Origin: Dimargaris cristalligena
Taxonomy: Eukaryota; Kickxellomycota; Dimargaritomycetes; Dimargaritales; Dimargaritaceae
DNA length: 19,946 nucleotides
Direction: 5' to 3'
Assembly (NCBI GenBank): GCA_027576995.1
Contig: JANBQC010000527.1
Coordinates: 1 to 19,946 of the forward strand
The translations under genes were made by a program, and so were the position numbers. This document shows positions 113 through 19,946 of the stretch, piece by piece (within the stretch, counting starts at the first letter, position 1; each line of letters starts with the position of its first letter). The notes beneath the pieces are model-generated. The model worked only from the letters and a program-made list of their open reading frames with translations. It did not search any database and was not told the DNA's origin.

Positions 113-217
113 CTTTCATTTGTAAATGACCCACTGTTTTCTAGGAATTAGGGGGTTGTTGACATTGTTACTTGAAATAGAACTAGGCCTGCAGTCTTTA
201 TATTTCAGTTTAATTAG
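113..217 (+). pseudogene. Remnant of last exon of a repeat-family gene (copy L0)
   Basis: This stretch aligns with the last exon of the - strand copy ending at 18574. In the same frame the left copy reads V-D-I-V-T-stop-N-R-T-R-P from 158, and the right copy reads L-N-I-V-T-C-K-S-T-R-P. A Cys codon (TGT) in the right copy is therefore a TGA stop at 173-175 here. A second stop (TAG) follows at 215-217. The shared frame across both copies argues that the segment was once coding. The premature stop and the loss of similarity before about 113 say it is now broken. The protein is not recognised. Confidence 0.45.
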
Positions 218-547
218 AAGGGTGAAAATGTCCTGACTAAACATGAATTAATTATGCTATTATTATTTAGGGGCTGAACTAAACTGAACTTAGCAATACC
301 ACTGTTCTATAGTATTTGGGAGTAAGGGAGCCTTGATCTCTGAAGCATAGCCATGGACAACAATGGCCACCAGGGAGTAAAATGGTTGTTTTCCATAGGG
401 GCCAAGTCAGCTGCAATGGCAGTGGCTTCATCATTTCAATTGAATTGTCCACCATAGTATCTGTGGAGGGGGTTTTGGGTTGGGCTTTATTATGTGATTT
501 GGTGTTGGTATCCCTGATTCCTCATAATGAGCACCTACTTCCATGGG

Positions 548-592
548 CTAGGTGCTGTGTCCCCCAGCAGTATAAAACCCGAGCCCTGTTCC
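548..592 (+). promoter_or_regulatory. Conserved TATA core promoter of copy L1
   Basis: TATAAAA lies at 571-577 inside the best conserved part of the inverted repeat, preceded by CCCCCAGCAG. The first exon of the family begins about 70 bases downstream in both copies, a reasonable TATA-to-ATG spacing. Strong conservation of this patch against weaker flanks supports a functional core promoter, at least in the ancestor. Confidence 0.55.
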
Positions 593-647
593 CCCTGTTT
601 GGATTTCATTAATATTATCAGTCCAGGCATTCAATGTGAGCATAGCC

Positions 648-1911
648 ATAATAAAAAATATATTTTCAAAGAGCAAGGAGTGGCCTAGTAGGGACTATCC
701 TATGGCCAATGCAATTGCTCCCATTATCAAGCCCATCAAGTGGGCTTTCGAAAAGGTAGGTTATATTTATATAATATAATATTTTTTTGTTTTTCCCAAC
801 TAATGGGGCTGCCATCCTTTTATATACTGCACCAGATTTTCTTATTTAGCTGGAATTCTGGCATTTGGATGCCTGAGACCTGCTCTGAAAATGCGGAATT
901 ATTAATTAGGATAGCAATGAAGTGGTGATTCCTTGCATCAATGTAAATGGACCTAGCCTCATGCCTTTGTGTTTCTCCATAGATATGTGCTACCTATATG
1001 GCTATACCACTAATATGCTTGCCATTAATACAGTTATATAATTGCTCCTAACAATAGTTTCTACAATTCTATGTTTCTTTATTTGTATCTTTCCCATCAG
1101 ATGGTGAATGCATTTAGGCTACACAAAATAATTAGCCATAAAACAAAACTCTTGTGTTGCCCAACATATCAACTTTTATCTCCAACTGTGGGTGGCATGA
1201 CATCCTTAGTAATAAGCAGAAAGAAAGTGCTGTATTCAGCAACTGCTCCACTCCCAACTGTATTCCGCCATATCCCACCATGTAGGCAAAATGGCAGGTA
1301 GAGACTACCCCCTTGAACAGTTCACCCCAAATAAGGAATACCTGTGATAGCCTTACATTAGGGACACTGTCCTAATAATTACTGTGGATCTAAATTTCCT
1401 ACTTGGAATTTATAGGTTCAATATTTTTTCCCTTACCTCCCAACCTTCTTTGCATCTAACCACATCATACTGGTGTATAATGGCCTAAATCCCCATATCA
1501 CAAATGTAATGAAGTGGCCAATGTAATTTCCTCTCTTGGAGCATGCCACCTCCTATTCCTAAGTTGTAACTATTACCTTTTGTGTTTGCACTTTCCTCTT
1601 CTCATCTGCCACTAACTATTGCCAATTGCATTACCCATTTTTTACAATAAACAGTAATTTTCAAATATTTAATCTGAACTGGTGATATTCTGATTGTGTG
1701 TGGTTGATAATCTGATATAATGATTACATCTACCCCTGAAATTGACCCCTCCAACTTGGCAACCATCCAATCGGTTGTCACCAAGGAGCTGCCTTCCACA
1801 TCTTTGGGCAACACTGCTAGGGAGGTAATAGCTTTCCCCCAAAGTCCAATAAATCAAGCCCGGGTGTCAACTGCAGTGCAAATCCATTGGCTACAGTGTG
1901 GCCGCCTATAA
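648..1911 (+). pseudogene. Spliced repeat-family gene, copy L1, probably broken
   Basis: The first exon (648-755, 36 codons) aligns with the 37-codon first exon of the right copy and shares the motif RDYPMAN followed by I-I-K-P. The position of the right copy's ATG is ATA here (648-650). The first in-frame ATG is 702, inside the conserved motif, so the start is lost or moved. A GTAGGT donor at 756 is in the same phase as the right copy. CTAAT near 799 could be a branch point, and TTATTTAG at 842-849 a possible acceptor. Further collinear matches to the right copy are a Cys-Cys motif after an acceptor near 1101, an F-S-x4-P-S segment at 1426-1449 after TATAG, and a last exon (about 1710-1911) with S-D-x-x-I-x-x-T-P and N-L. 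I could not join these exons into one open frame. The function is not recognised; it may be a decayed gene or a badly resolved gene model. Confidence 0.4.
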
Positions 1912-2092
1912 GAAAAATAATCTCAATTCAAATTAGTATTCCTACGGGAGAGATTCGACTATAATTGATAGATAAAAATCCATTTGTTTAGATAGGCATT
2001 ACATGACAACTAGACACGTCTAGCTTTTCCCCGTATAAATATCAATTTTTTATTAATATGAATTAGCTGAGCTACATTTTACCTATATCAAC
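1912..2092. other. AT-rich spacer, nothing seen
   Basis: This is AT-rich DNA between the last exon of copy L1 and the putative end of the Tc1/mariner remnant. I see no ORF, RNA gene or repeat here. Confidence 0.5.
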
Positions 2093-2120
2093 TACAGTGG
2101 CTCCAAAAAGTGTACCAATG
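2093..2120 (+). mobile_element. Putative 5' terminal inverted repeat of Tc1/mariner element
   Basis: A TA dinucleotide is followed by CAGTGGCTCCAAAAAG, a sequence of the style seen at Tc1/mariner ends, which begin CAGT and sit at TA targets. It lies upstream of and on the same strand as the decayed transposase. The matching inverted end was not found downstream before the MPE1 gene, so the element is probably truncated or its 3' end has decayed. Confidence 0.35.
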
Positions 2121-2559
2121 TTTTTCACTTTTGGATTTAGAAAGGGATTACTTAGGCTCTAATAAAGGTATAAATAAATGGTTACAACCAGACGAGAACC
2201 CTTCCTTTCTAGTTAGTATGAATTAAACGATAGACTCGTATTTTTTATTTAATGACAAGACATGGCTGTTCTAAAATGACTAGTACATTGATACAATTTT
2301 TGAACTTGTTCAAAAAAAATGTGTTATTTGGCCTTATATATCAGTAATAAAAAGTGTGATTGATATTTATAGCCTTCCTCTCCAATTTATATCCTCTTTT
2401 ATTCCTTCCTGTCTAAGAACTACCCAACTTACGCATCAGAAATCCCATCCACAAGGCCAATAGGTGTAATATCACCCAGTACTTCAATTTTATTACTAAT
2501 AAGTAAAAAATTACTAACGAGCGTATTATAAGTTGTGCTATAATATAGTATGCTACTGA

Positions 2560-3310
2560 TGGGGTGCATTTAGGCCACCTCCGGGCCATTTTATCACAAT
2601 ATAAGAGTAGTAATCCAAATTTACTAACTTTACCAGTCTGTATTATATTAATGAACTCATGGCTAGAAGGAAGATAACTTCACTAGATATCCCCAATTTA
2701 ATCATAGAGGTGCTTGGGGTATCTGTACTAACCGGTATGGCACACAATACTCTCCATACAAAGGGATTAGGTATGAGTATTGAGTGCAAGAAGCAATTTT
2801 TTACAATCAAGAACGTGTGTAAGTATTTTGCCTGGCCAATTGCCCACAAAGACTGGACTCTGGATAATTGGAAGTATGTTGTGTAGTTATATAAGACTAT
2901 TAATAACTATTGCAGGCCAAATGGCCGCTACTTTATATGGAAATGTGATTCTGAGAGGGTCTAATTATATTATAATAATAAAACAGGCCCATCCAGGGGG
3001 TAGAAACATTATAATTTGGAACTGTTTTAAATATAATGGTGTAAGGTATATTACCAAAAAATAATAATCGACCGGTATCTCTTTAAGAAAATACATAAGA
3101 AAATTCAGCCCTCCTTGGGCATACATTACTGTATCAAAGTTGATTTAATTATCTTTTAGTAGGATTATATCCAGAAATACATGACTAAACATGACCATAA
3201 CAGTGTATATGTATTTTGCAGACCTGGATTTATGACTTCTTTCAGAACAATTCCATGAAAATTTACAGGATGCTTTCATTCATCTATGTTTATTTCCCAT
3301 GATTCGATTT
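2560..3310 (+). pseudogene. Decayed Tc1/mariner DDE transposase
   Basis: Translating across frames recovers the family's landmarks in the right order. These are: F-A-W-P-I-A-H-K-D-W-T with D-N-W-K-Y-V-V (about 2830-2883), then a TAG at 2884 where the family has the W of WSDE; N-G-R-Y-F-I-W-K (2920-2943); P-G-G-R with I-I-W-N-C-F-K-Y-N-G-V (about 2989-3043) in another frame; and L-I-I-F then TAG TAG then D (3145-3165), where the family has IIFQQD with the second catalytic Asp. The first catalytic Asp of WSDE is not preserved. A weak match continues to about 3310; the third acidic residue was not located. The transposase cannot be active. The limits are approximate, and the N-terminal DNA-binding part before 2640 is hardly readable. 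Confidence 0.85.
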
Positions 3311-3557
3311 CACGGATCTGTAGTTTGCTCGTTAACTGCGTTTATTACACTCTATATTACTACCCATGATATCAGTGTCTAAAAAATAGCAGACCTGATA
3401 ATGAATATCCAGGATACTGTTACACGATATCGAACATTTAAATCCATAATACATAACGATGCTATGTATGAAAAGGTTGCTGATATTGTGGTAATCCAAA
3501 GACAAACGGGTCACCGAGAAAATGGTAATCCGAATTAAATATCAGACTTGGCAGATT
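3311..3557. other. 3' flank of MPE1, no gene seen
   Basis: This is AT-rich sequence between the transposon remnant and the stop codon of MPE1. It should contain the MPE1 3' UTR and polyadenylation site (minus strand), but no clear canonical signal stands out. No other coding signal is supported. Confidence 0.4.
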
Positions 3558-6500
3558 CTATCTATGGCCCTTATTTCTAGCGGCGCCGACTAGTCGCTCT
3601 CCGTAAGTTGATTTATCCCTATCTTCATGATCACCATTGCTACGCTGGCGGTTACGGGATGATCGATTGTCCGGGCCATGGTCCCTACTGGACCGGCCAC
3701 TTGCATTACGATGGCGGGGGCTGCTTGGTCGTCGGTAGGGGTGATCTTGTTGCTCGTCGGCACGACGCCGACTTGTTGTAGTAGTTCGTGAAGTCGCCCG
3801 ATCCCGTGAGTAAGATGAAGATGCTGGTAATGGGGAAGGAGAGCGTCGGGCCCCGGAAGTTTTGTGAGAACGACCACTCCCGGCAATACGGATTCCTTCG
3901 CTTTGGGTTGTCGTGGTAGATGGACGGGTGCGGGAACGGGAAGGGGAGCGGGACCTACGGCGTTGGCGCTCGCGTGGGTAAGTGGAACTGGTAGTACGGC
4001 TGCGGCTATCGGGGCGATCCCGAGACCGAGACCGTTGGCGTGATTTCGCAGGGGAGGGAGACCTTACGCGACGGCGGGACGACCGATCGGAGTCGTGGTA
4101 GGAACGGGGATGGCGGTCGACTGGTGACCGGCGATCCCGTGGCCGGCTAGTCCGCCGATTGGGACTGGCCACCCTATGGTTACTATCGTATCGCTTTGGA
4201 CGGGACTGATACCGACTCGGGCTACGGCTTGAACGGCGGGAAGAGCGACGGGACTCGGATGTCATGGAAGGCTCGCGCCGGCGGGAGGAGGACCTACCGG
4301 ATCGGGAGCCGTTGGTACTTGTTCGTCGATTGCGACCGTGATTGGCGCTGGATGCAGGCGAGAAGTGGCTATCCGCGGGTTGGTCATTATCCGCTGGGAA
4401 AGATTTTGTGCTGTACGGACTACGTAGATTCTCTTGGATAGGTGACGAGCGTATCGGGTCAGGGGAAGGCCGGCGGGTTGGTGATGCGGATCGACGAGGT
4501 ACGCTTGCCTTACCATTCTCGAGTGGCGTGGAGTCCCGGTCAGAGCCAGCTCGATAAAGATCGGTTCGATCTGACGTTGGGGGACCTCGGCTCGGTGACC
4601 GTGAACATTGGCCAGGGCGGTCACTGGGTGACTGGCGAGAAGGGGCATCCATGTATTCCTGGGGGTTGGCATTATCGTTATAGTTGTCATTATAGTCGTT
4701 TAAGCGCTGGTCATAGTCATAGCTGTTCCCATTGCCATGATCATGGTCTTCGCTATGAGAATGAATATACATTTGCTGGTCGGGAACGCGGCCGTTATCC
4801 CCGGGGTAATCCTCATCATCGGTGTCGCCCGTATAGGAGGGCTGGGGAGACGCGTCGGTTGTGGGCCCATGTCCGCCAACCATGTATGGGTAGCCAGTAT
4901 TATGATTCGGGTTGTTAGGGTAGGCCTGGTTATTCTGGGGACCTCTCCATTGACCATTACCAGCAGCACTGCCCGGGTGCGAGTAGTAGGGCATACCCAT
5001 ATTCATTCGACCGGGCTGAGGATTGGGGTATCCATTACCAAGGGGTCGCATCATTCCCATGGGCATATTCATGGGGTTCATCCCCATTCCCATCCCCATC
5101 CCCATGCCCATATTCATGTTCATATTCATACCCATATTCATGGGGTACTGCGGGTTCATGTAGGGAGGGCGGGGACCACCCATGCCTGGGCGGAAGTAAG
5201 GGTAGGAGTTGTTTGGCGGGTACATGGGAGGCTGGGGGACATAGGGACGGAATCGATTATCCCGGGGACCGGCTCCTATGGATGGGCCTCGCATATCCGG
5301 TGGGCGGTTGTTTTGGACCGGTTTGGGCCCATCCGTTGGGTGAGTCATTTTGGACCCCGCCGACTCAGACTCGGCCGTTGCTACGGCTTCCGACTCGAGT
5401 TTAGAGCTGGGCGTTGGTGGCTGCGGCGTATCCGAGGTGGTAGGGGTCTGGGACTGGTTAGTCACCCACTGTTGGATATGGTGATCGATACGTTGGCGAA
5501 GCGCCGGGTCAGGAATGAGCTGGTCGGGCACGAGCGCTGACTTTTGACAGTGGGGGCAAGTAAAATGGGACGATGGGTGGGTGTCCAGGAGGGCCCCTGT
5601 AATGCAGTCGTCGCAATAGGCGGTTTGGCAGCACGGAGTGCGCACCGCCTCCTTGATTAACCCTTGGCATAACGCGCATTTGAAATCGGCCGGAACCGTG
5701 ATTCCCTCCAAACCCGCATCGGTTGCGACGGTTTGCTGCGACGACTTGTGGAACTTCTGCCAGGCCGCGTCATTGGCCTGGGCCACGACTAGGCTTCCGT
5801 CCTCAGTGACCATGGCGCCCTTGTCCTCGGGCAGGGCGTCGATCTTTTGAAGGAAGCTTTTGGGAATCCCCGTAGTACGCTTAATGCGGGGTTGTCCGAA
5901 ATTCTTTTCCGCGTTGGTTGGGCAATTGAAGATCCAATGACCCTTTTGACCGCACCGGTGGCACACGTAGTTGGGCGGAAGGGGTCGGTTAGCCTGTTGG
6001 CCGCCTCCAGGGCCCAGTGGATTGCGGGGCTGGGGCCGATACCGGTTAAGTTTAGCGTGGCTCGTCGCCAACTCTTCGGCCCGCTGTTCCCACTGCTGAG
6101 ACGACTGTTGGAACATGCGTTGGATCCCCTCCTCCTCGGTTAATGGCATTGAAGAGGAACCGAATTGCGACATGGACGAGCCGACATTCCAATTCGAAGA
6201 AGTGGCACCTCCCGTAGGGGTTGGGTTCGATGGGTAGCCAGAAGGGGCGCCTGATACCGGGGGATAGTTGCGGCCACCACCGCCGGAAAGTCCGCCGCCA
6301 TACCCAGACGAGAGACCTCCACCACCTCCCCCTCCTGTAGAACCGTGTCCGTGGCCATGGCCACCGCTACCGGCCAGACCGCTCCGGCCGGGCTTTACAG
6401 GGATACGACGTACGAATACCGATGTGTTCCGGGAGATTAAGGAATTGTCTTCGGTGTAGTCCTCACCGGTTTGGGCATTGGAAATGATAACGTCAAAGCT

Positions 6501-6626
6501 CTCGGGATCCAATTTATTGGCCTTTAGTACCTCCTGCTTGAGATCATAGAGAGAGATGGACAATCCGTCAAATACCACCGACGAATAGTTTTTAGACGCT
6601 TTGAATTTATAGTGGATCAGAGACAT
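3558..6626 (-). CDS. MPE1: Mpe1/RBBP6 homologue, pre-mRNA 3' end processing factor
   Basis: The product has 1022 residues and no introns. I start at the ATG at 6626 because the DWNN domain begins exactly there (M-S-L-I-H-Y-K-F). The open frame extends upstream only to a TTG, not an ATG. Domains: DWNN ubiquitin-like fold at 1-77; Gly-rich linker at about 80-120; CCHC zinc knuckle with C222, C225, H230, C235; conserved G-I-P-K-S-F-L at 253-259; RING/U-box-like domain with C317, C320, C332, C333, C338, C341, C357, C360; Pro-rich stretch; Met/Gly/Asn repeat at 495-526; Asp/His/Asn-rich patch near 600-655; Arg-Ser-rich tail from about 662 to the end. Family members are subunits of the cleavage and polyadenylation factor; RBBP6 also acts as a ubiquitin ligase. 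Yeast Mpe1 is under half this length and lacks an RS tail, so this protein resembles metazoan RBBP6 more closely. The identification is firm; the role of the tail is inferred. Confidence 0.95.
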   Translation of the reverse strand: MSLIHYKFKASKNYSSVVFDGLSISLYDLKQEVLKANKLDPESFDVIISNAQTGEDYTEDNSLISRNTSVFVRRIPVKPGRSGLAGSGGHGHGHGSTGGGGGGGLSSGYGGGLSGGGGRNYPPVSGAPSGYPSNPTPTGGATSSNWNVGSSMSQFGSSSMPLTEEEGIQRMFQQSSQQWEQRAEELATSHAKLNRYRPQPRNPLGPGGGQQANRPLPPNYVCHRCGQKGHWIFNCPTNAEKNFGQPRIKRTTGIPKSFLQKIDALPEDKGAMVTEDGSLVVAQANDAAWQKFHKSSQQTVATDAGLEGITVPADFKCALCQGLIKEAVRTPCCQTAYCDDCITGALLDTHPSSHFTCPHCQKSALVPDQLIPDPALRQRIDHHIQQWVTNQSQTPTTSDTPQPPTPSSKLESEAVATAESESAGSKMTHPTDGPKPVQNNRPPDMRGPSIGAGPRDNRFRPYVPQPPMYPPNNSYPYFRPGMGGPRPPYMNPQYPMNMGMNMNMNMGMGMGMGMGMNPMNMPMGMMRPLGNGYPNPQPGRMNMGMPYYSHPGSAAGNGQWRGPQNNQAYPNNPNHNTGYPYMVGGHGPTTDASPQPSYTGDTDDEDYPGDNGRVPDQQMYIHSHSEDHDHGNGNSYDYDQRLNDYNDNYNDNANPQEYMDAPSRQSPSDRPGQCSRSPSRGPPTSDRTDLYRAGSDRDSTPLENGKASVPRRSASPTRRPSPDPIRSSPIQENLRSPYSTKSFPADNDQPADSHFSPASSANHGRNRRTSTNGSRSGRSSSRRREPSMTSESRRSSRRSSRSPSRYQSRPKRYDSNHRVASPNRRTSRPRDRRSPVDRHPRSYHDSDRSSRRRVRSPSPAKSRQRSRSRDRPDSRSRTTSSTYPRERQRRRSRSPSRSRTRPSTTTTQSEGIRIAGSGRSHKTSGARRSPSPLPASSSYSRDRATSRTTTTSRRRADEQQDHPYRRPSSPRHRNASGRSSRDHGPDNRSSRNRQRSNGDHEDRDKSTYGERLVGAARNKGHR
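5049..5144 (-). repeat. Met-Gly/Met-Asn dipeptide repeat inside MPE1
   Basis: Residues about 495-526 of the MPE1 product are nearly all Met-Gly and Met-Asn dipeptides. On the + strand they are encoded by repeated CCCATC and CATATT hexamers. The hexameric DNA periodicity points to slippage expansion of a coding microsatellite, always a multiple of three so that the frame is kept. Confidence 0.8.
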
Positions 6627-7313
6627 GGCTAAATAAGGAATAGTTAATAGAGGTATCAATACTGAATTTTTGAAAGGGAGGGGGAGCTCTATGAAAAATA
6701 GGTAGATAAGCCAATTGCGCGTCTATGAGGGGGCGCGGGGGGAGGAGGGACTATAGAGAAGATTTTGAAAGAACCCAAACAAGGCTGTGGCCGAGAGTCG
6801 AGGGGGCGGTGGCGACGGTGACGGCAGCGCTGTTGGTGCAAATGGAGGTAAACTGAGATGGACGAAGAACAAGCCGTCTTTGAATACGGTTTTGTGACAA
6901 ATCGAGCTGTGAATGGGAAAGCCAAAAACTATTGCAATAAAAAAATATACTCAAGACGGACAAGGTAGTGAGAACCACCCAAGGCCCACTTGAGCGAGAC
7001 TATATATGGACTGCAATGGGGCTTAATAACCTCGTTTAGGAGGGCAAACGCGCTTTGGCGTACGTTTTTTGCCAATTTATCAATTCGAACAAGAGAGTGT
7101 CAAATCGCCAAAATGGACAGTACGAAGACCAGTGTAAATCAAGGAACTTCAAAGGCTTCTGATACGTGTCATAAACTAAGTACCCGTCTTTCTATAAACT
7201 AGGGGCAGCGGTCTCTGTAGAGTGCTTCTAATGCAGTAGCTGAGTATTTAAATTACTGTCCTGTTATTCTAGGCCCACAGTCTCCCACTGGATCCGACTT
7301 CATTGGTATTCAA

Positions 7314-7499
7314 TTATTTTAAGCTGGCTGTAGTACCGCCGCCTTTGGTGTATACTTTTGAGTCTTCAATGGTTTTCCTTTTCAACACACGTTCTCCACC
7401 ACCCCACAGCAGGCTATAATAGGTTTTAGCCATGTAATTACTGTACTGGCTGATATTGTCTAGACTGCTTCTTGGGTCGTATAGACGCCAGTTTGGCAT
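7314..7499 (-). CDS. Doubtful small ORF, 61 residues
   Basis: An ATG-started frame (7497-7499) runs to a TAA at 7314. It encodes a basic, Tyr- and Gly-containing peptide with the segment Y-S-L-L-W-G-G-G-E-R near the middle. Its composition looks more protein-like than other chance ORFs in these flanks, and it lies in the gap between two divergent genes with room on both sides. Against it: it is short, I recognise no family, and an overlapping out-of-frame ATG lies 25 bases upstream on the same strand. A possible GTAAGA donor near 7569 could mean a 5' exon exists. It may equally be chance. Confidence 0.3.
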   Translation of the reverse strand: MPNWRLYDPRSSLDNISQYSNYMAKTYYSLLWGGGERVLKRKTIEDSKVYTKGGGTTASLK

Positions 7500-7765
7500 A
7501 TTGATTGATGGAGTTGGACATCGTTTGACAGGATTTTGAAGGAAATAGCCACCCGCGGATGCTTTCTTACCTATTAATGAAAGGCCCTCTATTTACTCAG
7601 CCAGGTGCTGTTGTGTTGTATATAACTGGCCCAATTCGAGACTTTTGGACTCGTATAACTTAATTTATACAGCATGCTGATTAAATTGGGTTCCAGAGAG
7701 CCCGCCCACCCACTATCGTGGCAAGACTTGGGACACAAATTTAACTAGAAAAATCCGATTTAAAG

Positions 7766-7800
7766 GCAGCAGCAGCAGTAGTGGTAGTAGTTAGTAGTAG
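7766..7800. repeat. Trinucleotide microsatellite (GCA/GTA) upstream of NUP192
   Basis: A run of GCA triplets passes into GTA/TAG triplets about 430 bases before the NUP192 ATG. It is short and imperfect. If transcribed it would lie in the 5' leader; no function is implied. Confidence 0.65.
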
Positions 7801-8229
7801 TGTCCGTTTAGCCCACACTGGAAATGAGCGTGCCCTGGCTGGACTGAAGCGTCCTCATTGGCGAAGGCGAATGGTGTTTGAGTCCCGGCGGGGTCTATCT
7901 AGGGATGGTGTTCGTGTATTAGCTAGCTCTAACCCTACCCTACCAGCCTTAATTCCCGGGACTAAGAAGACCCTTCCAAGCCTCTGGCCATTACCTCCCC
8001 ACTTTTATTCTTACTCTCCAGGCCAAAGCCTAATGCTGGCTAGTCTCCTCTTGTTCACCGATATTCCTATATACTCCTCCCTTAGTTTTACCATCCGTCC
8101 AGCCGTGTCTATCCGGCTTTGTTTCCTTCCCCCGACTGTTCGACCCTCTCTGATCCGTTTGATCTGAAGGTGCCTTTTCTGTTTATTTACCTTCTTTATC
8201 CGGTTTAATTCCACTGCCCTCTCTCTCTA

Positions 8230-11200
8230 ATGGACACAACTGCCCCGACTTGGAAGCCCGACACATTTAAGTCGCTGTACGAGCTTCTCAGCGAGGCATG
8301 CGCGTTGCCCCAGGATCTAGTCGGTGAGCCCGCCCTTGAGGAAACCTCCCTCAGCCTGGTCAGGCATTTGCAGGCGGAGCTCCAAACCCATCTGGCCCCC
8401 GCCTTATTCCTCCCCGCTGCGACCAAGCGCAACCCGGAGCATCGCCGGCGGGTGGAAACCGACCAAGTGGCCGAAATTAACGGCGTCTTGCATCAATTGA
8501 ACGCCGACTTCTGCCAAGAAGTTCTCCGGTTGGCCGACTTTTTGAATATCGACGAATACCTAGCCGCGACCCTGATCCAATGTGGCCTGGATCACTGCGC
8601 TCGGTTTGAACGGCCCCCGGTAGAAACGGGGATTCTGCTCTATTATACCGAATCCCTGTATAACTACCTGTGTTTGGAATTCGTTGTCAAAATCGCGTTG
8701 GATGCCCAGCTTAACGAGCCCCTCCGTCAGGTGTGCGACTGGTTCCTCATGGAGTATGTCCTTCAGTCCGCGGCGACCAGTCCAGCCTCCTCAGCCTCCG
8801 CCTCGGGTAACCGTTCGTACAAAGACTATATAGCCCAGTGGCAGACAGCGTTGGGGTCCCAGAAGGCCGAAATCACCAAGTGGCGGACTCTCCAGGAGGA
8901 CGTCAAATGCCTGCCGACCACAGCCGCTCCTTCGGCTAACCAACCGGCCGCCACCCTTAGCAGCAGTACTCAGCCCCGAACCATCCAATCGGCTATGCCG
9001 TATGGCTTTAAGGTCGTGGAAGAGATCATCGATAAGGTGGCCCAGAGTCGTCTAGTGCTAGCTAACGCCCTTTTCCTCACCAGCTACTTCCGGGCCGTCC
9101 AGCCCCCGCAGCTACTGGCCCTGCTCAACCATGTTCGCCAGGAGGCCGATGCCGAGGACCCCGTGTCCCTGTATTTGCTAATCACCATTTTGGCTTCGAT
9201 TGACCTTACCGCGCCCGGATCGGTCACGCAAAGTGCAGTGTCTGATACCCAGGGCCAGCTGAGCGCCCACGCCAGCGTCATCACCCATATCAGTGAGATG
9301 CTGCAGGACGATACCAAATGGGTCACCACCTCCCACTACTTGCAGGGGCTACGGGGGTTGGTTATTCTCCAGTGGAGCCAGTATATGCTGCTCTGCCTGC
9401 ACCGTTACCCGGCCATCGAAAACCAACTGTCGGTACGGGAGGATTGGATCGAGCAGTGGGTCGAACGTGCCATCCAGCTCGGCGCATTCCCCTTTGCCAC
9501 CGAATACTGCCTGTCTTTCAAGACCATCGATCCCCAACGCTACGATTCCCCCGACCCCGCCGCGCCTGTTTTCTCTCAGAATGCCCTGTTTCTGGATGCG
9601 GACTTCCAGCAGCATATCAGTCTACAGCTGAGCCGTACTATTACGGGGTTGATTGCCAATATGTCCAGTATTCTGCGCCGTATGCGCTATCGCGAAGAAG
9701 ATAGTTACCTCCACCAACAGCAGCTGCCCCAGCTGCAAATCCAGCAACAGCAGCAACACCAGTATTCGAATTACCACCAGTATCCGCTACGACAGCCCGC
9801 CACGCCCCATCCCCTGCCCAAGCTCTCCCACGATATTGAGGATCTCTTTACCTTAGTTGCCACTCTTTACGCTGACGCTCCCGATCTGGGCCTTCGCTTC
9901 TGGATTGCCCTCTCCCCCGCTCAGCTACCCCTCACTGGCCAACCCCTCCTGACCGCTGACGATGAAAACGGCGGGGGCCGACTTGATCCTACCGATGAGC
10001 GCCTCCACGTGTTTCTCAAGTGGGCCAGTGACTGCCGGGTGCCGGGCATGATTCGGGCCTACTTTGACATGCTAGGGTCGCTTGCTACCGGTCCCCAGTG
10101 TGCCCAGTTCACCTACCTATTCCTTGATAATCACGGTGCGTCCGCCCAGGGTGGATTGGGTCGTCCCACCTTTGCTGCCGCCCAACCCACTAGCCTATGC
10201 TCCTGGTCAGCCCTCTTCGCCGCCCTGCAGTTCTATGCCCAGCGTTTGCGGCAGGCCGGCCCGCTACAGGTCCCCGCCGTATCGGCGGCCCTAGGATCCG
10301 GCGGCGATCAGACAGGGGCCGAAATCCCCCCCGACGAGGTGTCCTTGATTTTGGCCTTTCTACGTTTGCTCCGCCAAGCCGTGGCTTACTCGGCGGTGGT
10401 CCGCCTGGCCCTTTTCGAACACATCGAGTACCGGGTGTTGTACACTCTCTTCGACCTGTTGGGCTGCCGGGTGCCTATAATTCTTAAAGCGGCTATCCTC
10501 AAAACCCTAGCGGCATTCTGTGCCCCACCTCTCCGTACCGCCGCGAGCCCCCATATGGCTGCCGTCGATTCGGTCGACGCAGTGCTAGCTGTGGTCGACA
10601 TGGCCCAGCAGGTGTGGCATTTCTTGGAAATGTCTCAGACCATTCCCACCACCGGCGACTTGGGTGAATTACAGCGCTATTACCAGAAAAATCCGCTGGC
10701 ATCCTCTTCGGCTACGACAGGACTGGCAGTAGCAGGGGGCCAGCATTTATTTGCTTCGACCCTCCCAGCCATGGGTGCCACTTCGACAAAGGGCCCTTGG
10801 TACCCCCTCACCGGCCCAACCGTATCAGGTCTTTTGTACGAACTCGAAGAAATTGAGGCGGCCAAGGAAGTATATCCCGAGTCACTGGCTTTTGTGCGAT
10901 TACTGCTATCCTTAATCCAGTTACCTACTCGAGGAGGCTCGACCCAGCAGCCCCCTTCCGCCATCATCACGATGGGTACCTCCGACATCTCCTCCCTGGA
11001 CTATGGTGTTGCATCACCGACTATTCCTACCGAGTTGGGCGCGCCTTACCGACTCCCGGGCATCTCGCCCTACGTGACCGCGGTCCTGGACCATATTTTC
11101 CTCAAAGCTAACCAGCGGGGCTACCGGGTCCCCGAGGAGAATGGTTACCTTCACGACGCCTGTCTGGAACTGATTGAGCGCTGTCTGGAGACTCTTGATT

Positions 11201-14200
11201 TGACCGATTTTCTCCTGGACCCTACGGTCGCGAGCCTACCGAGCCAAATTCTCGGGGATACGGACGAGCTCGCGCGAGTCTTTGGCAATGGCGGCGACCC
11301 CGCCGGTGGGAAAGCCAACCAATCTCCCACCCTACCCGAGGGCCTGCGTAACACGCTCCGCCGACTGGTACTCCACCCTGGGTTTGAGATTGTCCTACGT
11401 TTCCTGTCGGGTTCCCAACTGCTGGAGGAGTTGCTGGGGTTGGTTATTAGCCACCCCGTGGACTCTATCAATAACACTGCGACCATGAGGACACGGGACT
11501 CCGCCCCCGTCCGTTCAGTACGCACCGTGCAACTGACTCTGCGAATCATCCGACGCCTACTGCATATCCAGTCCATCTTTTTACAGCAACTCTTCCCGCT
11601 CCTCAGCACTCCTTGGGTCCAGGCCCAACTCGGCTTCTCAGTGGCTCTTCAGCTCCCCGGTAGCCTGGTTCCTCTCGACCAGCTGCTCTTATTCCGGCAC
11701 CAGGCCATCGTCCAGATTGCCCTGTCCATCAACTGTCGGTCCAGCGAGGAGGTCTGTCTGCTGTCCATTCAAATCCTGAACCGGCTGTCCCAGTCCCCAG
11801 TATTCCTTGCCCATTCCCAGCCCTTGACTGACCTTCTACGTCGCGGGGCGGCGGGATCCATGCCCTTGGCCGCGCCCCCCAGCGGGGCCGGGGAAAGCCG
11901 CCTAGTCGCCTTATTCGACCATAGCGACGAGTCTCTCCGTATTCTGTTTGGGTATCTGGGTCGGCTCGAAATTGACGGACCGGAAATGATGGACGATGAG
12001 TCGGTTGGTGATTGCAAGTTCAATGGGAGCGGTTCCGGATTGGGCTTCTTGGGTTCTTCTCCTACCGACACCAATGATGCGTTCAGTGGGGGGGATGCTC
12101 CCGTCACCGCCAACACCATTCGCCTCGCCATTATCGACCTGATCTTGGCCAACCTGGCTCCTCAGCGGGGTCGCCCATCCCTGGCCCATTGGCTTCTAGG
12201 GTTTGATATCTCCTCTCCCGCGGCTATCCGTGATACCGAATTCGAAAGTCCCCAAGCGAACGCTACTGTTGGATCATCTAATATGGCTGTCCGTGGATTT
12301 GGGGGTCGCCGGCGCTACGTGAAAATGTCCTGCTTCCACATTATTATCCAGGCTCTCCGGGAAGGTACCCTTGACATCCAGTCCGCCGGTGACTCTGATG
12401 GGGAGGGCGGGGGCAGCGAAGGAATGAACCTTTTCGTACGGCACCCCGAATTTGCCACCCGCTGCTTCCATCTCATCTACAACCTAACCCTTGACCCATT
12501 CACCGGGCCACCGGTCATTAAATACTTGCGGGAAATGGAAGATTTCTGGCCTCGCCAGCTCGCCCTGTACCGCGGCTATTTAGGGCGTTTTGTGGAACCA
12601 ATCGTTCCCCGCTTCGATATCGAACAGGAAGGAATCGACGGTGTGCTTGGCGGAACCGCGGGTTGGACTGCCTTGGCCCGGGCCACCACTTGCATGCACC
12701 AACGGGCCTGGATGCTCCATTCTATGGCGCTTGAGCTGCAACTGCTTACAATCGCGAATGAGCGGACCCGTGCCCGCCAGCTAATGGAACTACTGTTCCG
12801 CCCCCATTCCGCCATCATGTCATCAACCTATGCCCAGTCCTCTGATGATGGGGATAGCGGGGGTTACCTCGACTACCAGCGACTGGTCCAGAGTCACCCC
12901 AACTCGGCGACTGACGCATTTTTGGAATCCTTCTGGTCCCATACGATAGCCTCTCGATTGGCCCGCCGTGGCGCCACCCCCGACAACGTGGATCCCCGCA
13001 CGGTAACTGTGGTCTGGTGGTTTTACGAATTTTTCAGCCTGTGGAACCAAGGTGCCCTGTTCTTCACCCAAGTCTTTGAACAGTTGGAGAACTCGTCCCC
13101 CGGTGGGACTACGGCAATGTCGTCCCTTGACTATTTTGACCATGTCAATACCGAGGCATTCTGCCGCCCGGATGAGGAGGGCTGTCCCGTTTATGACCTC
13201 CAGGCAGTGCAGTTGCAGCTCCAGGCGGAGTTGTTCCAACTGGAGCGCCGCGGCCGAATTACTACTCCCGGTCACCACCATCTGGCCCAGGCGGAAATTA
13301 ACCGGATTCTCAGGGTGCTGTTTGTCAAGTCACAACAGCTACGGTTTAACTACGCCCACACCCACGCCGTCCGCGCTTGGCAGCAGTTGATGGACGTGGC
13401 TCTAACCACTGGTTTCGACTGCCTCGGTGATATTTGCCGTACCCAGCAAGTTGGGCCCGGTAATGGGTCAACCGAGGTCTCGGGTGCGATGGGCTGGCAG
13501 TCAATGTCCATTTTCAGTGGCAACCACGGGGCTTCCCCGTCTCAGTCGTCCTCGCCGGGCATTACTTACCAACCGTGCGAAACCCTCCTGTTCCACTTAC
13601 TCGATACCTTCCTTACCCGCTTCGCCTTTGCCCTGACCTCCGACGAGGCCAATGCTCCGGCTATTCTGGAACATTTGGGTGGCGGTGTGCTCACCCTGTG
13701 TAGTAAACTGAACCAGGGTTTGAGTCCCCGGTTGGCCTCCATCTCGGCCACTCTGCTCCGAGACGCCCAGGACAGATTGGGTATGGCTAACTTCCCCCGC
13801 CACCCCATCGAGGCCCAATTCCCGGTGGAGTGGGTCACGGCCCTGTGGGAACGCTTGGTACCCTGTGCCTTGGAGACGGGTTCGTCACTTCAGTTACGGG
13901 GTAACATGTATGTTGCTTTACTTGGTATCCTGCGGTACTCCGGAGCCGTCGTGCGGGCTGATGAGGCTTTAATCACACTGCTCCCTGCTTCCCCTGCCTC
14001 TGGATCGGGGGTTGCTCTTCCGTCCGGTGGTTGGTCGGCTGCTATCGCTGGTGCGGGCGGTAGCTCTACTTCGACCGGACCCGGTGCCCTCGAAACCTCC
14101 CTTCTAGCTACCCTTCAATCTAACGGCAACCAGCTCCTAGAAATCGTGTCCCGGGATGCCACTGACAGTCCTGATGTGTGGCGTACCGTGGCCTTTTCCC

Positions 14201-16071
14201 TGCTTGAACAACTGGTACGGGTCTTTGCCCAACCTAGTCAGCCGAACAAATGGATCCAGGCGCTTACCCAGCGCACATACCTCCGCCACATGATTACGGC
14301 GCTCAAACGGGACGAGCTTAGCTTGGCCCAGACTCTGCAGGTCGACGCTGAATCACTCAACCCCCTGTACGTTTTCGAAAGCAAAATGAACCTCTTTTTG
14401 CGCATCGCCCAGCGACGCGACGGGGTGGAGAAATTGGTCGAAAATGGCCTTTTGGAGATTTTGGACGAATGCGATATTCTGGATCTGCAACCCCAGGTGG
14501 ACCTCGACCTGAAGCACACCCGTCTAGAGGATCTGGAGGAAGGGCATATCCAAATCCTGGAGCGATACCAGCATATCCTTACTCTGATCCTGCAGGTGCT
14601 TCTGGCTCTTGTGGTCAAGGCGGGCCAAGACCGGGCTACATTGGCCATCAAAGTGGGCCTATATCTGACCCGGCGCCGGCGTGTGCTCGAATCCGCCCTG
14701 GTAGGATTTAACTCGACGGTCACTCCCACTCTCCTTCGCCAGTCCGAATTACTCTCGGGATTCATACTGGCCCTTAGTCGGGCTATGCCAGCGCGTTCTA
14801 ACCCACACCCGAATCCCGCTGCCGCCACCGCTACTATTCCCGCCAAGGGATCGGCTCTCACCTTCCTATCCGGACAGGGCGGTGGTCAGCGTGACTTATT
14901 CGGGTTTGAACCGGCCATTTTGGCCCTCCTCGCCCGGTACCGCGATCCGGAATTCTGGACCACGCAATTACAGCCGGTGACGGAACGGGATAACCAGGCC
15001 GCCCGGACCATGGTTTACCGTGCCGAAGGCCATACCCAATCCCTCCTAGACTGGCAGGGAGGGGATTTACTCCTCCGTACTTTGCGTAATCTACTGGAAC
15101 TGGCGCTGTATTTATCGGCTGCGGCGACTTTCAATGGTCCACTGCCATCGTCCTCTTCGGTATCGGCTGCAGCCATGTGGTTCCGCCGGGGCGGAGGCGA
15201 CGAAGACCTCCGTGGTGGTTGTACTAATGTTTTCCGGCCTAAATTCACCTGGTCCCTGGCCGTACGGGATGGCGACGACTCTTTTGGTCGTGGGGTAACT
15301 TCGTCATACCCCAGTTCCCGCAATCAGCTTCACCCCTACTCGGCCAAAACCCCTTCTTTGGGTACTCTGGTGGTAATCCTAGCCCACTGTGTCCGGGCCC
15401 TCCAACAACAGACCACGGACCAGGCCTGGTTAAATCGATTGGGTGCTGATCCGTCCCGCTTGACTAGTGAAGAGGTGCAACAAATCCTGACCAGCTCGAC
15501 TGTGGCCAACTCTATTACCACGGCTTCCTCCTCCTCCGCCGGATCGTTTATCCCCACCGACGACTCGCATGGGCTGGCGCTCACACAGCGACAGGCCCTA
15601 GCGGATGCCGAAATCCGCCAACGGCTGAAGACTACCCACCTTCGACACCAAACCATTGTCCAGATTATCGAAAATACGCTGTACCTGCTGTGGCGTCATT
15701 TGGCTTATTACCTGGTGCCCTCCAATGAAACAGCGGCGTATCAGTCCGCCTACGCCGGCCGAAACGGCCCCGGAGGAAGCAGCGGTAGTGACGGTGCCCC
15801 TTCCTCCACCCTCGAGGTTTTTGCCCAGCTTTCCCCTCCTTCGGCTGACCAGCAGGCTTCCCTGCGCCTAGACGCTCTTACCGTTCTGCAGCCCTATTTG
15901 GCCGAACTGGCGGCTCTGGCATCTCAGGAGAAGCCCTCTCAGTCGAACGGGACCGCCGGTAGGACGGCGGTGGCTGCCTCTACCGAGTCAGGGGAGTCTA
16001 TGGTTTTTGTTCATCGACTGGTGCGCAAATTAACCGATCTGCTGCAAACTTCTCTTCATTACGGACAATAA
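8230..16071 (+). CDS. NUP192: Inner-ring nucleoporin of the Nup192/Nup205 family
   Basis: The product has 2613 residues from a single exon, starting at the ATG after a CT-rich leader and ending at TAA. Nup192/Nup205 is an alpha-helical solenoid scaffold of the nuclear pore inner ring. The call rests on the N-terminal block at 90-116 (L-N-x-D-F and L-A-D-F-L-N-I-D-E-Y-L-A), which fits the family pattern of helices followed by L-x-D-x-x-x-x-x-E-x-x-A. It also rests on the G-L-R-G-L-V-I-L-Q-W segment near 370, the helical, Leu-rich composition throughout, and the absence of FG repeats. The protein is much longer than yeast Nup192 (about 1680 residues) or human NUP205 (about 2010). Visible low-complexity inserts explain part of this: Ser/Ala-rich near 180-250, Gln-rich at 495-514, and Gly/Ser-rich near 1930 and in the C-terminal third. 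The related Nup188 is the main alternative and is less likely from the N terminus. Codon use is GC-rich, unlike the flanks. Confidence 0.85.
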   Translation: MDTTAPTWKPDTFKSLYELLSEACALPQDLVGEPALEETSLSLVRHLQAELQTHLAPALFLPAATKRNPEHRRRVETDQVAEINGVLHQLNADFCQEVLRLADFLNIDEYLAATLIQCGLDHCARFERPPVETGILLYYTESLYNYLCLEFVVKIALDAQLNEPLRQVCDWFLMEYVLQSAATSPASSASASGNRSYKDYIAQWQTALGSQKAEITKWRTLQEDVKCLPTTAAPSANQPAATLSSSTQPRTIQSAMPYGFKVVEEIIDKVAQSRLVLANALFLTSYFRAVQPPQLLALLNHVRQEADAEDPVSLYLLITILASIDLTAPGSVTQSAVSDTQGQLSAHASVITHISEMLQDDTKWVTTSHYLQGLRGLVILQWSQYMLLCLHRYPAIENQLSVREDWIEQWVERAIQLGAFPFATEYCLSFKTIDPQRYDSPDPAAPVFSQNALFLDADFQQHISLQLSRTITGLIANMSSILRRMRYREEDSYLHQQQLPQLQIQQQQQHQYSNYHQYPLRQPATPHPLPKLSHDIEDLFTLVATLYADAPDLGLRFWIALSPAQLPLTGQPLLTADDENGGGRLDPTDERLHVFLKWASDCRVPGMIRAYFDMLGSLATGPQCAQFTYLFLDNHGASAQGGLGRPTFAAAQPTSLCSWSALFAALQFYAQRLRQAGPLQVPAVSAALGSGGDQTGAEIPPDEVSLILAFLRLLRQAVAYSAVVRLALFEHIEYRVLYTLFDLLGCRVPIILKAAILKTLAAFCAPPLRTAASPHMAAVDSVDAVLAVVDMAQQVWHFLEMSQTIPTTGDLGELQRYYQKNPLASSSATTGLAVAGGQHLFASTLPAMGATSTKGPWYPLTGPTVSGLLYELEEIEAAKEVYPESLAFVRLLLSLIQLPTRGGSTQQPPSAIITMGTSDISSLDYGVASPTIPTELGAPYRLPGISPYVTAVLDHIFLKANQRGYRVPEENGYLHDACLELIERCLETLDLTDFLLDPTVASLPSQILGDTDELARVFGNGGDPAGGKANQSPTLPEGLRNTLRRLVLHPGFEIVLRFLSGSQLLEELLGLVISHPVDSINNTATMRTRDSAPVRSVRTVQLTLRIIRRLLHIQSIFLQQLFPLLSTPWVQAQLGFSVALQLPGSLVPLDQLLLFRHQAIVQIALSINCRSSEEVCLLSIQILNRLSQSPVFLAHSQPLTDLLRRGAAGSMPLAAPPSGAGESRLVALFDHSDESLRILFGYLGRLEIDGPEMMDDESVGDCKFNGSGSGLGFLGSSPTDTNDAFSGGDAPVTANTIRLAIIDLILANLAPQRGRPSLAHWLLGFDISSPAAIRDTEFESPQANATVGSSNMAVRGFGGRRRYVKMSCFHIIIQALREGTLDIQSAGDSDGEGGGSEGMNLFVRHPEFATRCFHLIYNLTLDPFTGPPVIKYLREMEDFWPRQLALYRGYLGRFVEPIVPRFDIEQEGIDGVLGGTAGWTALARATTCMHQRAWMLHSMALELQLLTIANERTRARQLMELLFRPHSAIMSSTYAQSSDDGDSGGYLDYQRLVQSHPNSATDAFLESFWSHTIASRLARRGATPDNVDPRTVTVVWWFYEFFSLWNQGALFFTQVFEQLENSSPGGTTAMSSLDYFDHVNTEAFCRPDEEGCPVYDLQAVQLQLQAELFQLERRGRITTPGHHHLAQAEINRILRVLFVKSQQLRFNYAHTHAVRAWQQLMDVALTTGFDCLGDICRTQQVGPGNGSTEVSGAMGWQSMSIFSGNHGASPSQSSSPGITYQPCETLLFHLLDTFLTRFAFALTSDEANAPAILEHLGGGVLTLCSKLNQGLSPRLASISATLLRDAQDRLGMANFPRHPIEAQFPVEWVTALWERLVPCALETGSSLQLRGNMYVALLGILRYSGAVVRADEALITLLPASPASGSGVALPSGGWSAAIAGAGGSSTSTGPGALETSLLATLQSNGNQLLEIVSRDATDSPDVWRTVAFSLLEQLVRVFAQPSQPNKWIQALTQRTYLRHMITALKRDELSLAQTLQVDAESLNPLYVFESKMNLFLRIAQRRDGVEKLVENGLLEILDECDILDLQPQVDLDLKHTRLEDLEEGHIQILERYQHILTLILQVLLALVVKAGQDRATLAIKVGLYLTRRRRVLESALVGFNSTVTPTLLRQSELLSGFILALSRAMPARSNPHPNPAAATATIPAKGSALTFLSGQGGGQRDLFGFEPAILALLARYRDPEFWTTQLQPVTERDNQAARTMVYRAEGHTQSLLDWQGGDLLLRTLRNLLELALYLSAAATFNGPLPSSSSVSAAAMWFRRGGGDEDLRGGCTNVFRPKFTWSLAVRDGDDSFGRGVTSSYPSSRNQLHPYSAKTPSLGTLVVILAHCVRALQQQTTDQAWLNRLGADPSRLTSEEVQQILTSSTVANSITTASSSSAGSFIPTDDSHGLALTQRQALADAEIRQRLKTTHLRHQTIVQIIENTLYLLWRHLAYYLVPSNETAAYQSAYAGRNGPGGSSGSDGAPSSTLEVFAQLSPPSADQQASLRLDALTVLQPYLAELAALASQEKPSQSNGTAGRTAVAASTESGESMVFVHRLVRKLTDLLQTSLHYGQ
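9712..9771 (+). repeat. Gln-rich tract inside NUP192
   Basis: Residues about 495-514 are mostly Gln, encoded by CAG/CAA repeats. They are followed by a His/Tyr-rich stretch and then by the resumption of Leu-rich helices. This looks like a disordered loop between solenoid helices, expanded by triplet slippage. Confidence 0.75.
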
Positions 16072-17187
16072 GTGGAGGGGGTTGTGAGGACCGCGATTTG
16101 TTTTTTTGTAGCTTCCTATTACACCGGATAAAGTGGCCAGGCGAGTTGGTCTTTGTCCCAATATTAATTTTTCTGCGTTAAGTAGCCGATCATAGTGGAG
16201 AGTATTTACGCACGCACACACACACACCTATATATATATCCTTTTAGAGGCATTGTAAATTGCCCTCCGCTATTGCTTTTTTCCCCAATTGGCACCTTTA
16301 ACCTTTTTTACATACTGATTGACTCGATCTCAATTTTACTTCTTTTTTTAAAAAATCATAATTACCATGGTTTTTGTCTGTTATTAATGAAATATACCTC
16401 CCATCCGTGTTCCTTTGTATGGTATTGCTCGTGAATTGACTTGATATTGTCTATTGTCTGTAATCATTATTTGTCAGATCATCTACTCTTGCTAGATTGG
16501 TACAGCGAGTTATTAGGAACACAGTACGTTAATCCAGTTCAGAGAGGTGTATCTTACCATTTTAAACTACGCTATGAGATTGATTTTTTAGCAACTCTTA
16601 GCTATTCTGGCCAGGTAGTTAGTATTACTAGTGTAGTATAATTACTGATGTGTATTGATGGGCTAGGGGGGGAGGGGATATGGGAGAGATTCAACTAGGC
16701 TGTATAACGAAATATCCATTGGATGAAGCAACTACTGCTGGAAAAACAAATTGTCCGCCCATTTCCCCTATAAATATCATTGGAAACGCTATATAGCTGG
16801 GCCAAATCGCACCCATATTGTATATACAGGTAGCGCCTTGTATCATTAGTCAGCTGTGGATAATTTAATCCTAGGATTGAGTCAAGGTTTTGATACAAAT
16901 GTTTAGTACTATAGAATAAGCTGCAGGAATACTAATGGGGTAATGTTAGAGTGTTATTAGCGAACAAATACAAATGTTTTAATTATAATGTGTTTATTGA
17001 ATAACAGGAAGGAAGTTAAGCGGCTCTTAATGAGCGTACGGGATTTAAACAGACGGATAGGAGCAATAGTCATCTAGAGCTCTAATTGGGGCAGACCGTC
17101 CAGTCCTTTTTATACTGGAGATTTTGATGAACCCATCTGCATATGCGTAGGGTCTATGCCAATGGGTTAGAGGGTTTGTTCTATGGG
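16072..17187. other. AT-rich intergenic region, no gene seen
   Basis: This 1.1 kb downstream of NUP192 holds its 3' UTR (T-rich just after the stop) and only short ORFs, several with non-ATG starts. I find no domain, RNA gene or copy of the repeat family here. The sequence also covers the 3' side of the minus-strand copy R1 ending at 17188. Confidence 0.5.
16211..16239. repeat. Compound (CA)n(TA)n microsatellite
   Basis: CA dinucleotides (with one CG interruption) run from 16211 and pass directly into TA dinucleotides up to about 16239. The tract lies about 140 bases after the NUP192 stop codon. Confidence 0.9.
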
Positions 17188-18151
17188 TTAAGCACACCTC
17201 GGGGGTGTCACAGGCACTGTATCTCTTTTGAGTCGGGTATAGTCATCTGGCAATCTGCCGGTTATTGCTGCGATTAGATTAGCCTCGTTTGGCGTCCCTA
17301 TAGTGTTGTCGGAGTTTGTAGCAGGCACGGGGGTTGTATGCACTTGTGTTGGTCTAACCAAACCTGTTGGGTCCTGGGTTGTTGGGTCGGCATTGGGCAC
17401 CCCCAGCGATATGTTATCAACAAGACCATTCATTATTATGGTATGTATTAAGTGGGTACTGTAACTAACCAGGTGCTCCATACTAATAGTCAAAGAGCTG
17501 GCAGGCAAATGTTGGTGTAGGGGGGCACTAGGATTTGGGCCAGGGGAAAACTATTGTAACAGACGAGTAGAAATCCCAAAGTGGTTTCAGAGATTCCTGT
17601 TAGGCCTAAAGGAAAGGAGTGGTGTCTGGGGTTGGGTGGAGGGGTACCCCAGTTGCGCAGTTGGGACTTACTTTCATCTCCCAAAGACATTTTTGATCTG
17701 TTGCCATTATGGTTGGATAGAAGGTAGGAGCATAGTGACAAATGGTTAGAAAATTGACATTTATAAGCAGTAGTAAGGCAACATTGCCCACTTTCATATG
17801 TATTGGAAGTAATTATATTAAAGGCAGCACAATGAACTGTAGACTTAATGCTTTCATTGAAGTAATGAACCACTGTTCCATTGCCGCCCCCTTTAACATG
17901 GCTGATAGAAAATCAAGTGGTGTCAGCTCTTAATATGCTCCCCCATAAATATTATACTATTAAGGCAGTATATAAACAGAAGTCGACCCAGCTACATATA
18001 TTAGTAAAAAAATTAAAACATAAATATAAATAGTACTTACTTTATTAAAAGCCCATACAACGGGCTTGATAATCAGTGCAATGGGATTTGCCATGGGATA
18101 ATCCCTATTGAGCCGATTCTTCTTGGATAGAATATAAAGCTTAATTTTCAT
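17188..18151 (-). CDS. Spliced repeat-family gene, copy R1, exons not fully joined
   Basis: Exon 1 is 18151-18041: an ATG, 37 codons with the motif RDYPMAN then I-I-K-P, and a perfect GTAAGT donor in phase 0. The TATAAAA lies 69 bases before the ATG. TACTAAT is a good branch point, with TAG acceptors soon after it and near 17902. A Cys-rich open stretch (about 17901-17672) has the spacing C-x15-C-C-x6-C-x8-C and ends at a second GTAAGT. The likely last exon is 17550-17188: 120 codons after AATAG, Pro/Thr-rich in its middle, with a TAA stop. Exon phases do not close cleanly by eye, so either an exon is missed or the copy is mildly broken. Copy L1 shows collinear matches to exon 1, the Cys-Cys segment and the last exon. 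No known family is recognised and no clear signal peptide is seen. Confidence 0.45.
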
Positions 18152-18705
18152 GGTTAACAGGTGCTTTGGTGAATTGTTTTATGTACTGAAAGAAAAACTA
18201 TAGAGGAACAGAACTTGGGTTTTATACTGCTGGGGAACACAACACCTAGTCCATGAAAGTGGGTGCTCCTATTAGGAAATAGTAAATACCAATATCAAGT
18301 CAAACAATGAAGTCCAACTGAAATTTTTCACTGGATATACTATGGTGGATAATTCTAAATAAATTATGAAGTTATGGCCACTGTAACTGACTGGGGCCCT
18401 AAGGAAGACAGCTGTTTTATTCCCTGGTGACCATTGTTGGCTGTAGTTATGCTTCAGCCATTAATGCTCCCTTACTGTCTAATATAATAAAATAGCAGTA
18501 TGGATACATTTGGTATATTTTGAATGTTAAATAGCAACAGTTCGGCTTATTCATATTTGGGTTTGACATTGTGCTAATCCTTCAGACTAAGCCCAATTAT
18601 GAAGGTCACAGGCCTAGTGCTTTTACAAGTCACAATGTTCAGTAAACATATGTTCCCATGAGGCGGCGGGTCTTTCACACACAATGGCAACCTTGGCCCA
18701 TTTGT
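17990..18705 (-). repeat. Right arm of long dispersed inverted repeat
   Basis: Partner of 113-800, in opposite orientation. It includes, in minus-strand order, the end of an upstream copy's last exon, the intergenic promoter, exon 1 of copy R1 and the first part of its intron. The two arms lie about 17 kb apart and enclose the MPE1 and NUP192 genes. Confidence 0.8.
18205..18249 (-). promoter_or_regulatory. Conserved TATA core promoter of copy R1
   Basis: TATAAAA on the minus strand (18226-18220) is preceded by CCCCAGCAG and lies 69 bases before the ATG of copy R1. By hand count 40 of 45 bases match the left copy at 548-592, with only transition differences. Confidence 0.6.
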
Positions 18706-19885: not shown

Positions 19886-19946
19886 AATCAAATCCTTGAA
19901 AACTGAACTTTATTTGAAAAGATAGATAATAAAAGGGAAAGGTGAT

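Follow-up and report, generated by a model that had tools for sequence, protein, structure and literature searches.

Predicted two-exon microprotein genes at both ends of a Dimargaris cristalligena contig are members of a dispersed family

Dimargaris cristalligena belongs to the Dimargaritales (Kickxellomycotina), fungi that are parasites of other fungi. The window analyzed here is the entire contig C524 of its genome (GenBank assembly GCA_027576995.1, contig JANBQC010000527.1), 19,946 bases long, and all DNA searches were made in that one genome, which comprises 27.1 Mb in 779 contigs. Two related sequences, designated copy A and copy B, lie at the ends of the window in opposite orientation, and each is laid out like a very small spliced gene. 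Copies found elsewhere are named after their contigs. The predicted parts of A and B are as follows (nt, nucleotides).

121–570, plus strand: upstream block of copy A, common to B and to copies on C515, C21, C170 and C428
571–577, plus strand: TATA box (TATAAAA) of copy A, 185 nt before the splice donor
642–755, plus strand: exon 1 of copy A, 38 codons, with ATA at the usual ATG place
756–1100, plus strand: intron of copy A, 345 nt, GTAGGT...ATCAG, with branch point CTAAC at 1048–1052
1101–1130, plus strand: exon 2 equivalent of copy A; the usual stop is not in frame and reading continues
18227–18679, minus strand: upstream block of copy B, counterpart of 121–570
18220–18226, minus strand: TATA box (TATAAAA) of copy B
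18041–18151, minus strand: exon 1 of copy B, MKIKLYILSKKNRLNRDYPMANPIALIIKPVVWAFNK
17698–18040, minus strand: intron of copy B, 343 nt, GTAAGT...ACAG, with branch point CTAAC at 17745–17749
17674–17697, minus strand: exon 2 of copy B, seven codons (IKNVFGR) plus stop

The two ends align from 121–830 (plus) against 18679–17965 (minus), with 475 of 718 columns identical (66%; expectation value, E, 1e-89), and within this alignment a repeat finder marks three arms: 277–460 with 18337–18520 (74%), 474–592 with 18205–18323 (76%), and 675–772 with 18024–18121 (73%). Promoter and exon 1 are common to both copies, the splice donors (GTAGGT in A, GTAAGT in B) share the same phase, phase 0, and the final 22 codons of exon 1 comprise 11 that are identical, 6 with synonymous and 5 with nonsynonymous differences. 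An earlier note on this DNA had recorded the alignment, the donors kept in one phase and the codon differences, and its codon count proves exact. It had also presented the two ends as inverted copies of one another; the alignment holds, but A and B do not pair as sisters when 16 copies are placed in a tree, so the window ends are not a mirror pair. Copy B groups with C170, C428 and C21 (84/83), and A falls weakly with a different group (86/88). A single inverted duplication as the source of A and B is thereby rejected.

The resemblance exceeds what chance would give: an exon-1 query of 28 amino acids (aa) finds 15 places in the genome, 13 of them with E below 1e-3, and other queries add a sixteenth and weaker one, C465 (E 0.084 and 0.002). 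Together these are A, B, C623, C457, C428, C170, C553, C21, C359, C498 (two copies, a and b), C656, C555, C111, C477 and C465, a count of at least 16 that should be taken as a lower bound. The upstream parts of two more copies are present on C515, one broken by a repeat resembling a long terminal repeat (LTR) and the other by the contig end. At the C515 end (L002 2797–2954), 158 bases match window positions 18466–18623 with one difference, within a full match of 658 columns at 85%; this near-identity may reflect gene conversion or assembly overlap. A contig end lies no more than 6.5 kb away from all 15 copies of the first exon-1 search, a figure obtained without a control and including some short contigs, and the closeness fits assembly breaks in repeats. 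Linkage of the family to telomeres was considered and gained no support, (TTAGGG)3 occurring twice against four times for the backward control.

A common gene model, read from the sequence, is very likely to hold for these copies: a TATA box, an ATG about 70 nt further on, 37–38 codons, an intron, and a short last exon with its stop. A TATA-like motif stands 178–187 nt upstream of the donor in 14 of the 15 tabulated copies; C170 has TATAAAC, a one-letter variant outside the search pattern. Counting codons back from the donor, 14 of 16 copies have an in-frame ATG at −37 or −38, whereas among the remaining in-frame positions between −20 and −45 one in 384 is ATG. GTAAGT or a close variant, in phase 0, serves as the donor, and the intron measures 331–360 nt in 13 copies. 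Ten of 13 introns carry CTAAC, the usual fungal branch point, 51–59 nt ahead of exon 2, where letter-shuffled sequences would give 1.23; those without it are C457, C555 and C477. Exon 2 consists of nine codons and a stop, or seven codons in B. Its stop is in register in 12 of 15 copies (B, C623, C457, C428, C170, C21, C359, C498b, C656, C555, C111 and C477), and an in-register stop was read by eye in C465 as well; because the stops vary among TAA, TGA and TAG, it is their place that is conserved rather than their letters. A four-exon model with a membrane-spanning middle exon was also tried and was dropped because of a frameshift in C498b, a stop in the middle exon of C111 and, as judged by eye, the absence of any reading frame shared by the other copies; the middle stretch is read as intron.

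Eleven of the 16 copies (B, C623, C457, C428, C170, C21, C359, C498b, C656, C555 and C477) look intact, with a start, an open exon 1, donor, acceptor and stop. The other five are broken. Copy A has ATA for its start and an out-of-frame stop, C498a lacks an ATG and has no exon 2 that could be found, C111 and C465 carry a TAG stop inside exon 1, and C553 has exon-like DNA with no acceptor AG before exon 2. Since 14 of 16 copies have ATG where A has ATA, the start of A looks lost. Against C623, A nevertheless still has a low ratio of nonsynonymous to synonymous substitution rates (dN/dS 0.073/0.602), from which its decay may be recent. Both copies without an ATG, A (window 642–644) and C498a (L035, exon 1 near 219–329), have ATA at codon −37 or −38; judged by sequence, this may be start loss or a non-ATG start.

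The pattern of substitution points to a protein-coding gene. In the last 24 codons of exon 1 the median dN/dS is 0.158, and all 58 pairs with finite dS lie below 1 (of 91 pairs from 14 copies, C111 being dropped for its stop and C465 left out, A and C498a kept). For exon 2 the median is 0.214, with all 26 usable pairs below 1 (of 66 pairs from 12 copies), although nine codons are few. An inner control is provided by a conserved upstream stretch in the trio C170, C428 and C21, where dN/dS is 0.60–0.81 versus 0.09–0.19 in exon 1. In all 7 pairs compared, identity is higher at codon positions 1 and 2 than at third positions or in the intron; in C170 and C428, for example, it is 72% in the intron, 71% at third positions, 88% at first and 96% at second. 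In 6 of the 7 the intron is more similar than the third positions, but gapped alignment flatters the intron, and we therefore read it as roughly neutral, with mild constraint possible. A coding scan places its top signal in exon 1 in 5 of 6 pair comparisons and its second in C359/C498b. With 16 genomic places and exon medians far from 1, the spliced, selected multigene family suggested in the earlier note is borne out. An alternative is that the spliced RNA functions as RNA and the open reading frame is incidental, a reading that draws on the second half of exon 1 being the most conserved DNA in the aligned 1.1 kb; we regard it as extremely improbable, given the slower codon positions 1 and 2, the start and stop in register, the dN/dS well below 1, and the lack of any Rfam match at gathering score for the intron as a known RNA in the window, L030 and L034.

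The part of the gene that evolves fast is not the one first supposed. The earlier note had proposed a conserved 5' part followed by a fast 3' coding part, as in diversifying multigene families; the family and its selection stand, but the 3' layout does not, because exon 2 is conserved including its stop. The scattered collinear matches that it saw downstream are real as DNA; in the two-exon model they are intron and 3' flank rather than exons, although a transcript may join exon 1 to other 3' exons. The fastest codons are instead the first 13 or so, with dN of 0.25–0.44 versus 0.08–0.10 elsewhere in pairs of the C170/C428/C21 trio, and with dN about equal to dS there in C555/C477. Upstream, the block at 121–570 had been taken to include a last exon, of which we found no sign. 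The single coding-like stretch there was considered as a second, minus-strand protein (about −937 to −863 from the end of exon 1; in C170, C428 and C21, that is L031, L030 and L033, with a partial counterpart in B; scan z-score up to 3.8). Its dN/dS of 0.60–0.81 in the trio and 0.71–0.86 against B, with no third-position excess, led us to reject this candidate and to read the stretch as conserved DNA. The upstream block may be regulatory or a duplicated flank.

The predicted peptide is 44–47 aa long, with an isoelectric point of 10.2–11.6 and a net charge of +7 to +11 (11 peptides) and at most one cysteine. Three parts are predicted: a fast, hydrophobic and basic N-terminus, a near-fixed core RDYPxAxPxxPIxKPIxW, and a basic C-terminus IKxxFxxRK. 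Residues R16, D17, Y18, A21, P23, I27, K29, P30 and W33 (B numbering) are invariant in an alignment of 12 rows. A protein search at 26–82 aa in a collection of 5.8 billion sequences scored 247 candidates and found no relative at E up to 10, and no candidate came from querying with the open frame of 175 aa that surrounds exon 1 in C457. None of 12 members matched a Pfam family at E up to 1, and the PDB offered no credible relative, its single match (E 0.34) being taken as chance. The protein search reaches solely relatives with short exact words in common, and genes this short often go unannotated, so the absence of relatives is weak evidence. The literature searched, at the level of titles and abstract openings, held no description of the family.

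These peptide features are also compatible with an ordinary intracellular microprotein, in which the N-terminus would be a mitochondrial-like targeting peptide, while the core and basic tail would form the mature protein, attached to a ribosome or to an organelle complex. The fast N-terminus beside a slow core would suit such a protein, as would the mixture of basic and hydrophobic residues at positions 2–10, where 11 of 12 N-termini have no acidic residue. For an organelle subunit, however, sixteen scattered and partly decayed copies would be unusual, and neither a Pfam relative nor anything beyond that chance-level PDB match was found. We judge this reading rather unlikely, though it is a close rival of the antagonist role proposed below.

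Homology between close copies continues past the gene on both sides, for example from −1758 to +1272 in C21/C428. This extension, together with the dispersal of the copies close to repeats, is what would be expected if the repeat unit were a non-autonomous mobile element and the short open reading frame what remains of its coding region. Inspection by eye of where the match stops in several copy pairs, however, showed no common ends, terminal repeats or target-site duplications: the match either tails off or is interrupted by other repeats, and contig ends remove several of the right-hand borders. Searching the genome with 1.2 kb of DNA from upstream of C428 (positions about −1.1 to −2.3 kb) gave one other place, a match of 99 bases on C21; this search was not sensitive, since a local BLAST did pick up fainter resemblance at greater distance in both C21 and C170. 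That the copies are old and have a coding sequence under selection, an intron and a stop likewise speaks against a mobile element, which the earlier note had raised as its alternative; the proposal has gained no support and we consider it very unlikely.

A different repeat lies at the window ends, and the contig itself stops inside it on both sides.

1–112 and 19872–19946: ends of the LTR-like repeat

This repeat is about 515–570 nt long (TGTAAAG...CACCAC(A)) and is whole on C515 and C623; in a genome search, 40 of 210 candidates were scored and 40 of 40 match. On C623 it lies about 470 bases after frames for reverse transcriptase, RNase H, integrase and a chromo domain, and on account of these nearby frames a Ty3/Gypsy chromovirus is the probable owner of this LTR, which is unrelated to the microprotein family. 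No target-site duplications of the repeat were seen by eye. Beside copy C623, L028 3–2780 holds the Ty3/Gypsy chromovirus frames in three separate open pieces. The repeat lies within 4 kb of 7 of 14 loci (A, B, C457, C553, C111, C21 and C623), a count without background control that leaves out C498a and C465 and in which flanks are shorter at contig ends.

Such proximity recalls the wtf spore killers of fission yeast, multicopy spliced genes that are often LTR-adjacent; most wtf genes of Schizosaccharomyces pombe are flanked by a solo LTR (PMC9562144). The family could accordingly be a selfish killer that spreads by killing non-carriers, being multicopy, spliced and LTR-adjacent and having 5 of 16 copies decayed. 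In wtf4, exons 1–6 are used and intron 1 supplies another start and promoter (PMC9562144), whereas here two exons are predicted, with one conserved start, a 44–47-aa product with a conserved core, an exon 2 of seven to nine codons with a conserved stop, and no sign of a second product. The core is under purifying selection, the closeness of LTRs may merely mark repeat-rich places, and wtf genes are killers while here there are predicted genes alone. Pfam (12 members) and the protein search showed no sequence relation to wtf, no direct comparison with wtf proteins having been made. We give the killer reading little weight.

Two other kinds of fungal gene offer partial parallels. Fungal orphan microprotein genes, a topic of the review PMC12684174, resemble the family in encoding fewer than 100 aa, in having no relative found, and in being seen in one genome so far; the family differs from them in being multicopy with a shared spliced structure and a dN/dS well below 1, and since this holds between diverged paralogues the family would be long-lived rather than transient. 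Small secreted fungal effectors, including those of mycoparasites, are likewise small and present in many copies, and the Dimargaris lineage is itself mycoparasitic, but the predicted peptides differ from them in having no clear signal peptide, at most one cysteine and no Pfam domain. Compared with antimicrobial peptides, all 11 peptides are cationic, and the helical moment reaches p below 0.05 in one of 11.

Taken together, the window ends are probably best explained as a decayed member (A) and an intact member (B) of a dispersed two-exon microprotein gene family with a role as a cationic antagonist, an assessment weighted to the anatomy. We hold the gene-family part with high confidence: this is a firm new family, comprising 16 or more spliced genes in which conservation mostly extends to the branch point and the stop, and it is unmatched in the 5.8-billion-sequence collection at the lengths searched. 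The antagonist mechanism is offered tentatively, at somewhat below even chances. Each copy would be transcribed alone, spliced and translated; the positive charge of the peptide would let it act on membranes or on nucleic acid; and many variants would be kept because the family antagonises or evades the fungal host, competitors or other genome residents. A broader idea, that LTR-neighbouring killer or antagonist microproteins of fungus-parasitising fungi form a new class of short basic peptides, encoded by spliced genes easily overlooked in annotation, in which an unchanging core would carry the activity and a variable N-terminus would determine the target or distinguish self from non-self, strikes us as quite unlikely. 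If transcripts confirm the model, the family would illustrate how an intron more than twice the coding length can let a microprotein escape annotation, and would supply a small number of candidate peptides, open to testing, from an early fungal lineage.

Several observations weigh against this explanation. The five broken copies (A, C498a, C111, C465 and C553) are one, and the low dN/dS of the core would be no less expected from an ordinary conserved role than from an arms race. No usable dS was obtained in 33 of 91 exon-1 pairs and 40 of 66 exon-2 pairs, and the pairs are not independent. The exon-2 search pattern was drawn up after the alignments had been viewed, for which reason the support for exon 2 is its shared stop, branch point and dN/dS and not the pattern match. 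An extra in-frame ATG at codon −18 in A, B and C623 makes a shorter start possible there. Judged by composition, the 12 N-termini have 2–6 hydrophobic residues at positions 2–10 and thus no clear signal peptide, and the helical amphipathicity of the C-terminus is at most suggestive, with shuffle p values of 0.029–0.63 that fall below 0.05 in one peptide out of 11.

Between the two copies, the window contains two long open frames.

3558–6659, minus strand: DWNN/zinc-knuckle frame
8230–16071, plus strand: Nup192/205 frame, 2,613 codons

The Nup192/205 frame is open without a break, so that it needs no intron. Its nearest proteins are from Dimargaris verticillata (46%), D. xerosporica (45%) and two Dispira species (44%), among 7 that passed of 7985 candidates scored. 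A dispersed repeat of about 145 nt occurs twice in the window, at 16678–16818 and 19510–19654, and is also found close to copies C359, C498b and C623.

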